NCBI RefSeq assembly: GCF_017086365.1
Contig: NZ_CP070969.1
Span: forward strand, 3,906,001 to 3,970,000
From: Paenibacillus tianjinensis
Lineage (GTDB): Bacteria; Bacillota; Bacilli; Paenibacillales; Paenibacillaceae
Reading direction: 5' to 3'
DNA length: 64,000 nt
Each line of letters opens with the position of its first letter. The stretch's first letter is position 1. Below the pieces are notes generated by a model. The model searched no databases and was not told where the DNA came from. It saw only the letters and a program-made list of their open reading frames with translations. The position numbers and the translations under genes are program-made. Below are positions 1,523 to 63,214 of the stretch, piece by piece.

Positions 1523-2605
1523 TTATTGAGCGTCAGCTACGTTGTCTTTAGTGATCTTTTTGTAGGAAATCCATACATATTGGTTGTCAGTGATGTCAAA
1601 GCCAACATTTTCTTTGGTTGGAGTTTCACCTTTAGCCAGCAGGGATGCCAGTACGATTGCCGCTTTACCTTGGTTGTTGGCATCGTTCAGTACAGTTCCG
1701 AGCATAGTTCCGTCTTGCAGCGCTTGAACAGCTGGTGCAGTAGCGTCAACACCTACAACCGGCATGTATTTGTCGCCAGTGAAGTAGCCTTGTGCTTTCA
1801 GTGCTTCAATTGCACCCAGTGCCATGTCATCGTTGTTAGCCAGAACAGCTTCAATCTTGTCGCCATGGGATCCAAGGAATGCAGCCATTTTTTCCTGTCC
1901 TTTTACGCGGTCCCACATTGCAGTATCTTCAGCCAATTTCTCAACCTTGATGCCGGCATCTTCAATGGCTTGGATGGAGTAAGTGGTACGAAGCTCCGCA
2001 TCCTGGTGTCCAGGCTCGCCTTTAAGCATTACATATTGGAGCACGCCGTCGCCGTTTTTATCAGCTTCAGGGTGAGCTTTCCAGTAGTCAACGATCAGCT
2101 GGCCGGACATCGTGCCGGACTCTTCAGCTTTAGCGCCTACATAATAAACTTTATCCCATTTCTTCATATCTTCCGGAAGCGGTTCGCGGTTCAGGAAGAC
2201 AACCGGAATGTCAGCAGCTTTTGCTTTGTCAATGATAACGCCTGCAGCTGTACGGTCAACCGGGTTGATCAGCATGCCGTCGTATTTTTTAGTAACAAAC
2301 AGGTCAACCTTGTCATTCTGTGTAGGCTGTGAGTTTTGGCTGTCTACGATATCTACTGTTGCAATTCCTTTAGCTGCAGCATCGATAGCGTTACGAACGC
2401 CTGTCATGAAGGTATCATCAAATTTGTAAATGGCTACACCGACTTTTGGAGTTTCTGCACTGCCGGAGTTTGCTGTGTTGGTTGCCGCGTTGCCGGCTGG
2501 AGCATTCGTTGCTGTATTTTCTGAATTGTTGTTATTGCCACCGCAGCCTGCCAAAGCAGCCCCGAGTAATGCACTAGCAAGTAAAACGGAAGTGAGTTTT
2601 TTCAT
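1523..2605 (-). CDS. mglB: Galactose/glucose-type sugar-binding lipoprotein of ABC importer
   Basis: Solute-binding lipoprotein on the outer membrane face, delivering sugar to the Mgl importer. 360 aa. It has a signal peptide with lipobox ALAGC (Cys21), then an Asn/Ser/Thr/Ala-rich linker, then a periplasmic-binding-protein type 1 fold. The start of the mature domain (VGVAIYKFDDTFMTGVRNAI) resembles E. coli MglB. A strong AGGAGGT site precedes the ATG. It is first in the operon, separated from mglA by a hairpin, and preceded by a promoter that overlaps a CcpA-type cre site. Exact sugar specificity is inferred. Confidence 0.92.
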   Translation of the reverse strand: MKKLTSVLLASALLGAALAGCGGNNNNSENTATNAPAGNAATNTANSGSAETPKVGVAIYKFDDTFMTGVRNAIDAAAKGIATVDIVDSQNSQPTQNDKVDLFVTKKYDGMLINPVDRTAAGVIIDKAKAADIPVVFLNREPLPEDMKKWDKVYYVGAKAEESGTMSGQLIVDYWKAHPEADKNGDGVLQYVMLKGEPGHQDAELRTTYSIQAIEDAGIKVEKLAEDTAMWDRVKGQEKMAAFLGSHGDKIEAVLANNDDMALGAIEALKAQGYFTGDKYMPVVGVDATAPAVQALQDGTMLGTVLNDANNQGKAAIVLASLLAKGETPTKENVGFDITDNQYVWISYKKITKDNVADAQ

Positions 2606-44528: not shown

Positions 44529-44788
44529 TCGCTCCCGTTCCCCTTTTCGCAGTTAAATTACGCGTAAACGCGCAAACAAAAAAACCCTTTAGCATAGTCC
44601 GCTAAAAAGGTCCGATGGGCAAAAAAGAGTCACTCGCGATCGTCCCTTCTGTCTCGGTCCTTACGGCTCAGAGCAGAATCCAACGTAACCGTCTAGTACA
44701 GTTATGAAGGTGTATCCCATAGCAATTTCTGAAGTACCAAAAAAAATTCCGGAGTACAGTTCGTCATAACGATACCGTCTCTGTCCAT
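44529..44788 (-). promoter_or_regulatory. Structured leader of panBCD (candidate riboswitch/attenuator)
   Basis: About 250 nt of untranslated RNA between the promoter and panB. It contains CAGAG near the start and CTCTG about 120 nt later that could close a large domain, a direct repeat AACTGTACT (44748-44740 and 44704-44696), and it ends in an intrinsic terminator about 50 nt before the panB ATG. There is no T-box sequence (GGTGGNACCGCG). A conserved 'pan' RNA motif is known upstream of panB in Firmicutes; this leader may belong to it, but I cannot confirm the match by eye. Confidence 0.55.
44578..44610 (-). terminator. Leader terminator before panB
   Basis: Nine-pair stem (two G-U) CTTTTTAGC / GCTAAAGGG with a 7-nt loop, then seven T residues on the minus strand. 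It lies upstream of panB rather than after a gene, which points to attenuation. Confidence 0.75.
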
Positions 44789-60816: not shown

Positions 60817-61404
60817 TTACACCCTCTCAGCCTGCTCTTCTGCTTCAGGCTCATAAAAATAGGATTCGAGTTGGAGCTTCACACTGCTCCTTGCACGGAA
60901 CAACAGTGATTTCACGGAGCTGACACTCTGATCCAAAATGATGGCAATTTCCTGATAATCCATTTGATCGTATTCACGCAGAATCAGCGCCGAACGCTGT
61001 TTCTCCGGAAGATTATTGATGGCTTCGCGGACCAGGTTCATCCGCTCCTTACGTAGTGCAGCCTGTTCAGGAGCCACTTCAGCCGGTGCTACCGGTGTGT
61101 ACCCGCTCTCTTCGAGAGAGACATTGCCTGCACGGTTCTTGCGGAGCTCACTGAGCACTGTGTTGCGGGCGATCGTGTACAGCCATGTCGAGAATGAAGC
61201 ATCTACCTCGCGAAAGGAATGCAGGCTCCGGAATGCTTTGTAAAACGTCTCCGAACAGAGATCTTCGGCAATCAGCTCCATATGGGAGTTCTTAAGCATA
61301 TGATAGACAAAAGCCAGTATTTTACGTTGGTATCTTCGCATCAGTTCCGAATATAGTTCTGTGTTTCCTTGCTTGATTAGCTGGATCAACTGGGAATCCG
61401 TCAT
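60817..61404 (-). CDS. ECF-family RNA polymerase sigma factor
   Basis: 195 aa from ATG 61404 with GAGGAGGG upstream (the frame is open for 84 more codons but without a site or homology). Sigma region 2 (ELMRRYQRKILAFVYHMLKN; DLCSETFYKAFRSLHSF) and region 4 (LPEKQRSALILREYDQMDYQ; SVSSVKSLLFRAR). Similar to SigX/SigV/SigW-type factors. Its own promoter region carries the same boxes as the two amidase promoters in this window, so autoregulation is likely. Confidence 0.93.
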   Translation of the reverse strand: MTDSQLIQLIKQGNTELYSELMRRYQRKILAFVYHMLKNSHMELIAEDLCSETFYKAFRSLHSFREVDASFSTWLYTIARNTVLSELRKNRAGNVSLEESGYTPVAPAEVAPEQAALRKERMNLVREAINNLPEKQRSALILREYDQMDYQEIAIILDQSVSSVKSLLFRARSSVKLQLESYFYEPEAEEQAERV

Positions 61405-61488: not shown

Positions 61489-61830
61489 GTTGAATCCTCT
61501 ACATTTGCAATAAATAAGGCAATACTTCCTATGTATATTCCGAGTCCTTTGAAAAAAGATATGCTGCACGTAAATACAGGCAGAAAATGCATCTTCACAG
61601 ATTCCAAAGCTCCGGTAATCCCATGCTGGAAATACCAGGAAGAAATCTATAAACATACTTAACCTAGTATATCATACATTCTAACAGGATGACATTAATA
61701 GACTTAAGCCAACATCAGGTTAGCCTAATTATCTATATGGCGTCGAAAGCTGGAGAATCGCACCCGGTATCTGCTGAATAGCATAGCCAGCTTCAATAAG
61801 CAGCTTGGAAAAATAAGTTTATAGAAACGG

Positions 61831-61859
61831 TTGACAAAATGTAAACGGATACATATAAT
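61831..61859 (+). promoter_or_regulatory. Consensus sigma-A promoter of the small RNA, with cre in the spacer
   Basis: TTGACA-N17-TATAAT, perfect in both boxes and spacing. The spacer bases 61839-61853 read ATGTAAACGGATACA, matching all 15 positions of the cre consensus WTGNAANCGNWNNCW, so CcpA should block this promoter when preferred sugars are present. Confidence 0.85.
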
Positions 61860-61865
61860 AAAAGT

Positions 61866-61961
61866 ACAGTATGGTTTCTCTCCACTCCTATCCAAACACT
61901 GTACGATTCCAATATCAATTGTGAATTGTAGCCGCTTACTTTGTAAGCGGTTCTTTTTTTT
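61866..61961 (+). ncRNA. Candidate CcpA-repressed small RNA with C/U-rich loop
   Basis: About 95 nt from the predicted start to the T-tract. The 5' hairpin pairs ACAGT (61866) with ACTGT (61898) and exposes a 27-nt loop rich in C and U (TTTCTCTCCACTCCTATCC) with several CUCC/UCUCC blocks complementary to GGAG-type ribosome sites. A short CAATT/AATTG helix and the terminator follow. A 17-codon frame (MVSLHSYPNTVRFQYQL, 61871-61924) overlaps it but has no ribosome site. I do not know a described homologue; C-rich Firmicutes sRNAs such as RsaE/RoxS and CcpA-controlled RsaI are functional parallels, not matches. Confidence 0.75.
61932..61961 (+). terminator. Terminator of the small RNA
   Basis: 8-bp perfect stem CCGCTTAC / GTAAGCGG, 3-nt loop, then TTCTTTTTTTTT on the plus strand. 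No plus-strand protein gene precedes it, so it ends the small RNA. Confidence 0.93.
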
Positions 61962-62020
61962 GGTTTTAACTCACTCTGTTTTAATTATTGTGAATAAAAT
62001 ATTTGGCACTACGCAATAAC

Positions 62021-62119: not shown

Positions 62120-63214
62120 CTATACGTATACTGTATAATCGTTATGCTGCAGCAGAATTTTGGCCCGCTCCATATCGTTCTCCTGGCGGAAAGACAGCCG
62201 CATAATGCCTGGCACATCCTCACGGCTCTCAATGATCTGCACGTTACTGAGGTTGATGCCCTGATCCCCCAGCTCGGTTGCGATACGGCCAATGATCCCC
62301 GGATGATCGGGAACGTCAATATGAAGATCGAAGAGCGGAGTAATCATCCCTTTACGCCGTTCCGGCAATTGGCTGCGGAAACCGTTCGCTTCATGGAAGG
62401 CCTCCTCTATTCCGTCTCCGTCCGAATCCTCAAGCAATTGAATAAATGATGATACCTCTTCATTCCAGTCCTTCAGCAGACGCAGCATCACCGAGCGGTT
62501 ATTCAGTAAAATATCGCGCCAGATGATCGGATCGCTGGACGCAATCCGGGTAATGTCACGGAAACCGCCGGCAGCTAGGGTGCTGTACAGCGAATCCTCA
62601 GAATCATACGCGTGAATCTGATTCACTAGCGCAACTGCAATAATATGCGGCAAATGGCTGATCGCCCCGACAATCTCATCATGGCGCTCCGGATCAAGTC
62701 TGACAATCTGTGCTTTCGTATGTAGGAGCAAGGTTTGAAGTGCCTCATAAGCCTCCTCCGGCACTCCTGGCGGAGGGGTAAGCACATAATAGGCATTCTC
62801 GAACAGCAGCGACGAGGCAGCTTCCACCCCTGAGCGTTCCGAACCTGCCATTGGATGTCCGCCTATGAAATGAACACCGGGAATATCCAGCGAAACCGCA
62901 CAGGCTGCGATACTGGCTTTGGTGCTGCCGACATCTGTGATGATGCAGCCCGGCTTAAGCGGAAGCTTGCTTAATTGCTGCAGATAATTCTCAAGCATGC
63001 CCACAGGCACACACAGAAAGATGTAATCGGCGTCCAGCGCTGCTTCCTCAACAGAAAGGGTAGCCTGATCGACTACGCCTCTGCTGACATATTTAATCGC
63101 GGATTCAGGGCGGTGGGCATGGCCGATGACGGTCAGGCCCGGCTTGCCTTTGAAACAAAGGGCCAGTGAGCCTCCGATCAGACCGACACCGAAGATTGCT
63201 ATTTTTGTCGTCAT
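62120..63214 (-). CDS. tyrA: Prephenate dehydrogenase
   Basis: Tyrosine synthesis: prephenate to 4-hydroxyphenylpyruvate with NAD. 364 aa. Rossmann loop IFGVGLIGGSLALCF, catalytic His region FIGGHPMAGSERSGVEAA and AISHLPHIIAVALVN, and a C-terminal ACT domain (LHIDVPDHPGIIGRIATELG) for feedback control. 48 bp after hisC, same strand; same order as in B. subtilis. Confidence 0.97.
   Translation of the reverse strand: MTTKIAIFGVGLIGGSLALCFKGKPGLTVIGHAHRPESAIKYVSRGVVDQATLSVEEAALDADYIFLCVPVGMLENYLQQLSKLPLKPGCIITDVGSTKASIAACAVSLDIPGVHFIGGHPMAGSERSGVEAASSLLFENAYYVLTPPPGVPEEAYEALQTLLLHTKAQIVRLDPERHDEIVGAISHLPHIIAVALVNQIHAYDSEDSLYSTLAAGGFRDITRIASSDPIIWRDILLNNRSVMLRLLKDWNEEVSSFIQLLEDSDGDGIEEAFHEANGFRSQLPERRKGMITPLFDLHIDVPDHPGIIGRIATELGDQGINLSNVQIIESREDVPGIMRLSFRQENDMERAKILLQHNDYTVYV

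Follow-up and report, generated by a model that had tools for sequence, protein, structure and literature searches.

Among the metabolic small RNAs (sRNAs) of Firmicutes, most of those studied well are known from Bacillus subtilis and Staphylococcus. According to the excerpts of the cited papers, RsaI (RsaOG) of Staphylococcus aureus is a stand-alone RNA of 111 nt that is repressed by CcpA and pairs with SD sequences (PMC9266662, PMC8216469), a pairing through which it represses (PMC9266662). Other sRNAs are bound by G-rich parts of RsaI. In the excerpt of PMC8216469, RsaI is kept in Staphylococcus and not in Bacilli outside Staphylococcus, and RosA of B. subtilis is likewise described as a stand-alone, CcpA-repressed sRNA, its cre lying close to the start. 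RosA is a G-rich sponge for RoxS and FsrA, and it is via this sponge that CcpA reaches RoxS in B. subtilis, as far as the excerpts tell (PMC8216469, PMC8464778, PMC9266662). SR1 of B. subtilis is an RNA of 205 nt encoding SR1P. Under glycolytic conditions SR1 is subject to repression by CcpN and, to a lesser extent, by CcpA, and RoxS uses C-rich regions on its targets (both in the excerpt of PMC8464778). RsaE/RoxS (RF01820) is, in the same partial sources, an sRNA of about 115 nt with C-rich pairing regions that acts in central metabolism under the regulators ResD and Rex.

In the window (the whole stretch of 64,000 nucleotides analysed here), positions 61831..61961 very probably encode a small regulatory RNA with a C/U-rich core. 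The features of the locus are as follows.

61831..61836, plus strand: -35 box TTGACA, read from the sequence, the promoter being kept before the core across loci
61839..61853, plus strand: cre, a CcpA operator by consensus, ATGTAAACGGATACA, matching WTGNAANCGNWNNCW at 15/15
61854..61859, plus strand: -10 box TATAAT, read from the sequence
61864..61904, plus strand: predicted hairpin whose stem is GTACAGT/ACTGTAC and whose loop holds the core (fold)
61865..61893, plus strand: 5' block TACAGTATGGTTTCTCTCCACTCCTATCC, conserved throughout the order
61866..61961, plus strand: predicted sRNA of about 95 nt (promoter, terminator, fold)
61871..61924, plus strand: open frame of 17 codons with its ATG at 61871, judged not to be a gene
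61875..61890, plus strand: near-invariant core UUUCUCUCCACUCCUA of 16 nt, predicted single-stranded, the proposed target-pairing region
61903..61929, plus strand: second predicted hairpin, its sequence not conserved past close relatives (fold, alignment by reading)
61930..61961, plus strand: intrinsic terminator and T-run, read from the sequence
60820..61404, minus strand: ECF-type sigma factor, a frequent neighbour on the opposite side (TIGR02937 above cut-off; synteny)
62120..63214, minus strand: tyrA (prephenate dehydrogenase), convergent with the RNA in the window (NF005107 above cut-off; synteny)

An earlier note, made from the sequence of the window, had described here a stand-alone RNA gene, and its layout was found as claimed: a perfect sigma-A promoter (TTGACA, a 17-nt spacer and TATAAT; 12/12), a full 15/15 cre match wholly inside the spacer, and a predicted transcript of about 95 nt ending in a clean terminator, with independence from the neighbouring genes. 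The start of the RNA is placed about 7 nt 3' of the -10 box, and the terminator stem (61930-61952) has 10 pairs followed by CTTTTTTTT. When folded, the 97-nt RNA 61865-61961 reached -26.5 kcal/mol (z -5.8), and none of 200 shuffles was as good. Full cre matches occur three times in the window versus 1.28 expected, and 11 of 100 shuffles reach three; a single cre match is thus weak by itself, and the case rests on conservation. In comparison with RsaI, the promoter cre is here one by consensus only and the binding of CcpA is predicted. Unlike the G-rich RosA, furthermore, the present RNA is C/U-rich, and no run of three G was seen in the conserved block when the alignments were read by eye. While B. 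subtilis RoxS comes under CcpA through RosA, CcpA would here act on a C/U-rich RNA directly. The RNA also differs from SR1 in having no conserved frame.

The whole element (61820-61970) was used as a blastn query, in which the core played no part in selection, and matches were obtained in 98 of the 100 genomes of the order, own genome included; the weakest among them had E values of 6.9e-13 and 1.5e-5, and the two genomes without a match are 91% and 81% complete. We then read 70 of the matched loci, namely the 30 best and 40 chosen down the ranking. The promoter, the cre and the block TACAGTATGGTTTCTCTCCACTCCTATCC are little changed in these loci, and the 3' half varies; the second hairpin and the terminator change in sequence, yet a terminator persists. 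The core was exact in 68 of these 70 motif-blind loci and one base off in the other two. The promoter-loop-terminator layout that the earlier note had expected in related genomes is therefore present as far as promoter, cre, core and terminator are concerned, and this conservation, the decisive control, confirms the element as real at the level of sequence.

For the anatomy of the RNA, 139 non-redundant loci were compared, partly picked by the core itself. Each position of TTTCTCTCCACTCCTA carries about 2 bits of information and each of the preceding GTATGG 1.4-1.9 bits, but the value is 0.3 bits or less from the seventh base downstream of the core onward; the invariance of the core is inflated here because the loci were partly selected by it, but the downstream collapse is unaffected. 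A promoter precedes the core at 9/12 or better in 138 of the 139 loci (21.9 with shuffled upstream letters), at 11/12 or better in 111 (0.1 shuffled) and perfectly in 70 (0.0 shuffled). The fold is another matter. The earlier note had seen a large C/U-rich loop, and a hairpin with the core in its loop is indeed predicted, but its stem is without support from covariation: in 74 sequences the covariation of the closing stem UAUGG/CCAUA was not above that of shuffles, although the pairing fell from 75% to at most 53% when this stem was slid. The mean unpaired probability of the core is 0.82 and that of a shuffled core is likewise 0.82, so that the unpaired state follows from composition. A segment of the core recurs in reverse complement, as letters like GGAGTGGAGAG, in the promoter spacer of three loci (L121, L122 and L124); the inverted repeat spans the start site and is perhaps another operator.

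In terms of the perfect cre, the 139 loci fall into those with a match in the promoter only (60), in the gene body only (12), in both (none) and in neither (67); with up to one mismatch allowed, the respective numbers are 60, 24, 14 and 41. A cre with at most one mismatch is hence found in the promoter or gene body of 98 of the 139 loci, while in shuffles of the 140-locus set a perfect cre turned up in about 0.1 loci and one with at most one mismatch in 4.2. We thus strongly infer that CcpA controls the RNA in Paenibacillales and several other groups. The control would not be universal, since no cre at one mismatch or better was found in the f21 loci (which include Aneurinibacillus) or in those of Thermoactinomyces, Melghirimyces and Seinonella; the same was seen in most Alicyclobacillus-like loci (a guessed label), and the total without such a cre is 41 of 139. 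Upstream of the -35 box, a motif like AATCWGAAAATT is shared by L105-L107, L110, L111, L114-L116 and L139, all loci without a cre (one of them Melghirimyces), and is a candidate binding site of some other regulator.

The 12 perfect body sites sit in or beside the terminator, where palindromic hairpins can produce cre look-alikes, and belong to eight loci of f32 (a family that includes Brevibacillus), L100, and loci of Pseudalkalibacillus, Alteribacillus and Alkalihalobacillus; at one mismatch, Halalkalibacter and Fictibacillus also have body sites. A Fisher test of promoter against body cre gave P values of 0.001 for perfect sites and 0.02 at one mismatch, with shared ancestry ignored. In four of these 12 loci, the promoter contains cre-like letters as well, which were missed by the consensus used, and the picture of a moved operator is therefore not clean. 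A cre in the promoter would block initiation, and one in the gene body could act as a roadblock.

The RNA extends far beyond the order. When 398 genomes drawn over the class were searched for a 23-nt motif with up to three mismatches, 172 genomes in 74 of 145 genera matched, a count that includes uninspected matches of f15, f23, f38, f45, f46 and f53; the same motif read backward was seen in only one genome (G432) of this table. One match, that of G430 (L120, three mismatches), was judged spurious because no promoter or terminator was seen, and L120 was removed before every 139-locus count. Among named records, the exact 20-mer was found in at least 118 stretches, from genera including Paenibacillus, Cohnella, Brevibacillus, Aneurinibacillus, Ammoniphilus, Fictibacillus, Shouchella, Halalkalibacter, Alkalihalobacillus, Pseudalkalibacillus, Alteribacillus, Marinococcus, Geomicrobium, Caldalkalibacillus, Thermoactinomyces, Melghirimyces, Seinonella and Thermobacillus. 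As judged from these matches, the family spans about half of the sampled genera of Bacilli with its core nearly unchanged. A covariance model of the 5' part was also run on 398 genomes drawn over the phylum (16 of the 36 rows listed belong to the class) and gave strong matches in seven genomes, all from the window's own family; ten weak matches (22-27 bits) in nine genomes, considered as relatives outside the class, were spurious by eye. Viral contigs held no exact match.

None of the 4,227 Rfam families, among which RsaI is presumably represented as RsaOG, matched the element at its curated cut-off. Below the cut-off, there were 15 matches at E<=5 to the stretch in the window (best E 0.012), which we judged to be chance. 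Also taken as chance was a match of Hrs13 (RF02631) to the 3' half of an Aneurinibacillus copy, one of the 20 loci scanned (L093, 1516-1575; 35.2 bits versus a cut-off of 52, E 4.6e-5). The letters of the core, UUUCUCUCCACUCCUA, were absent from all of the 5.39 million papers of the literature searched, subscription papers and supplements being outside its scope, and no description of such an RNA was met by title or beginning of abstract in the literature joining Paenibacillus, sRNA and CcpA. The suggestion in the earlier note that the RNA is undescribed thus agrees with what Rfam (at cut-off) and the searched literature hold. A study on P. riograndensis, as far as its excerpt goes, reported 27 small RNAs, all but three of which have unknown function (PMC5670726), and the present RNA may be among those left unnamed there. 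The sole Rfam match at cut-off within the window is a pan motif (RF01749) at 44645-44781 on the minus strand, with 37 bits versus a cut-off of 36.2.

Our reading of the locus, which we consider probable, is a free-standing gene for a trans-acting sRNA that is repressed by CcpA and whose core pairs with the ribosome-binding sites of mRNAs. The layout of the gene, its conservation, its independence from adjacent genes and the fact that no peptide is conserved can be read from the sequence itself; binding of CcpA, expression of the RNA without glucose and pairing of the core with ribosome sites are what we infer from it. The gene would have been inherited vertically in a large part of Bacilli. 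With plentiful glucose, CcpA bound to the cre would block the sigma-A promoter, and the RNA would be made once the block is lifted; the C/U-rich core would then pair with a set of mRNAs at their purine-rich ribosome-binding sites, lowering the translation or stability of these messages.

When the core was paired with 1,092 start regions of the own genome (1.26 Mb), 189 pairings at -18 kcal/mol or better were obtained versus a mean of 118 for shuffled cores (reached by 3 of 40 shuffles), 40 versus 19 at -22 kcal/mol (3 of 40) and 11 versus 6.7 at -24 kcal/mol (4 of 40); at -26 and -28 kcal/mol, the core was no better than shuffles. The excess fits a weak and broad pairing with ribosome sites, without proving it. 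A start resembling that of pyruvate kinase is on the list at -23.3 kcal/mol. Sites fitting SD plus start with G-U pairs allowed numbered 18 in the own genome versus 3 in a backward control, and include a fructokinase-like gene at -32.4 kcal/mol. In 4 of 60 own-genome stretches sampled (L442, L443, L450 and L477), the same frame of 463 amino acids (MRSHEVQRQQ...) was seen with an identical start region, and this frame is a repeated element, perhaps mobile.

A conserved mRNA target was not found in these searches of the own genome and its relatives. Matches to AGGAGTGGAG-N-ATG occur in all 21 genomes searched, and among 30 of about 70 loci a gene was shared by different places only twice, both within a genus (G009/G011 and G004/G006). 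A search with GGAGAGAAACCATG at up to one mismatch covered 40 genomes, and 30 loci plus one further locus were compared among the matches listed; in these, one permease is common to three close genomes (G000, G009 and G011), and two more permeases, 31% alike, occur in G004 and G072, all being by reading sugar-type ABC permeases, a very large family. Recurrence of targets was thus confined to a genus or to distant members of one large transporter family. Two candidates were rejected: mgsA, whose site varies over 29 genomes (-10.8 to -26.2 kcal/mol), and an FtsH-like gene (window 33475, below the NCBIfam cut-off), which gave the best pairing of the 58 genes in the window but ranged from -11.5 to -24.0 kcal/mol over 27 loci, own included, with its complement not conserved. 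The earlier note had proposed mglB as a target (its name for the gene at window 1523-2605, minus strand), and this gene lies outside the 18 best-pairing of the 58 window genes.

The conserved block might be read not as an RNA but as a small mRNA for a micropeptide starting MVSLHSYP, an explanation that the presence of the ATG in 126 of the 139 loci would favor. Nonetheless, an SD-like motif lies upstream of the ATG in only four of these 126 loci, the frames range from 6 to 440 codons, and 13 loci (e.g., L071-L077 and L079-L084) have lost the ATG and keep the core; in the window itself, the 17-codon frame has no ribosome site. We hence give the micropeptide next to no credence, and the earlier judgment of no convincing protein is borne out by the lack of a conserved peptide over the 139 loci. 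Conservation of the frame alone with synonymous changes, which the earlier note had named as speaking against an RNA, is not what is seen, since the core is fixed at the nucleotide level. The block could instead be a DNA operator or a leader/attenuator of a neighbouring gene, and the inverted repeat that part of the core forms with the spacer in L121, L122 and L124 fits with such a role. The place of the element is conserved: in 229 of 257 loci (redundant between sources; one locus too near a contig end was dropped), tyrA, aroA or hisC is the first recognised gene to one side, and the other flank is often a gene for an ECF sigma factor or a TPR protein or one of a few other recurring genes. 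Evidence against an operator or leader is that the element has its own promoter and terminator, that both neighbours in the window are on the other strand so that neither is downstream in its direction, and that its orientation relative to the aromatic gene is inverted in 46 of the 229 loci. Of the inverted loci, 34 have the same two flanks as the window, seven have TPR and aroA flanks (Halalkalibacter, Shouchella and kin) and five have one flank seen; the RNA gene appears to have flipped on at least two occasions while its flanks stayed as they were, an argument for its being an independent gene. Staying beside tyrA, aroA or hisC and yet being inverted in 46 loci, the gene looks free-standing, and an operator or leader is highly improbable.

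It is also to be considered whether the RNA is a highly diverged homologue of RsaE/RoxS and not a separate family. The RF01820 model matched 112 of the 398 genomes of the class draw (82 over cut-off, with the control B. subtilis included), and none of the 112 has a match to the 23-nt motif, the spurious one of G430 aside. By family, the present RNA occurs in 31 and RsaE in 17 of 59, and none is shared as counted by eye with G430 left out; G430 belongs to f26, a family with weak RsaE matches, and its inclusion would make one shared family. The hypergeometric probability of no shared family is 8e-8 under the assumption of independent families, which they are not. This lack of co-occurrence in the genomes drawn would suit a diverged homologue, as would the alignment of TTTCTC-CCA-TCC of RoxS with the core, both being C/U-rich; but the RoxS stretch TTTCTCCCATCC aligns to the core with a score of 16, which 12% of shuffled cores reach. 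Furthermore, the RF01820 model found nothing in the window or in G000, nor any match at E<=10 to the element of 20 diverse loci, and the flanks of four RsaE loci, all from family f24, are different genes that form clusters of their own. Among 18 RsaE-bearing genomes examined, nine have the TPR gene, eight with aroA in the same stretch, and at the aroA-TPR junction of these eight the model of the present RNA gave nothing above 13 bits, the 13-bit match falling inside aroA. We therefore regard common descent with RsaE/RoxS as very unlikely; the two RNAs have different places and no model match, and perhaps the same trade. The remaining alternative keeps the RNA but changes its partner: acting as a decoy or sponge, it would use the C/U-rich core to bind not mRNAs but a protein or some other sRNA. 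Such binding would explain why 16 core positions barely change across families, whereas mRNA targets would be expected to drift, and it would be in line with the absence of a conserved mRNA target in our searches. On the other hand, the core out-pairs most of 40 shuffled cores at start regions with three cut-offs, and the C-rich regions of RoxS act on targets (PMC8464778) and RsaI represses through SD sequences (PMC9266662) in the excerpts cited. We consider a decoy or sponge rather unlikely, and pairing with ribosome sites as the probable mode of action.

Our wider picture is a tentative one. The RNA may possibly be a core RNA of early Bacilli that was wired to CcpA and replaced by RsaE/RoxS in Bacillus-Staphylococcus, its fixed core reflecting either one large regulon shared by all or a universal partner; the operator may, in some lineages, have moved from promoter to terminator with CcpA control kept. 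It would be the counterpart of the well-studied RNAs in Paenibacillus, Brevibacillus, Cohnella, Thermoactinomyces, alkaliphilic Bacillaceae and others, and raises the question of whether two unrelated RNAs took the same post in carbon control. The core is more constant than would be expected of an sRNA, and a single 20-nt probe fitting many genera provides a ready handle.

A second copy was also noticed in G337 (L132) and in one Ammoniphilus (L223), with other flanks and no strict-consensus cre; these copies are possible sibling RNAs.
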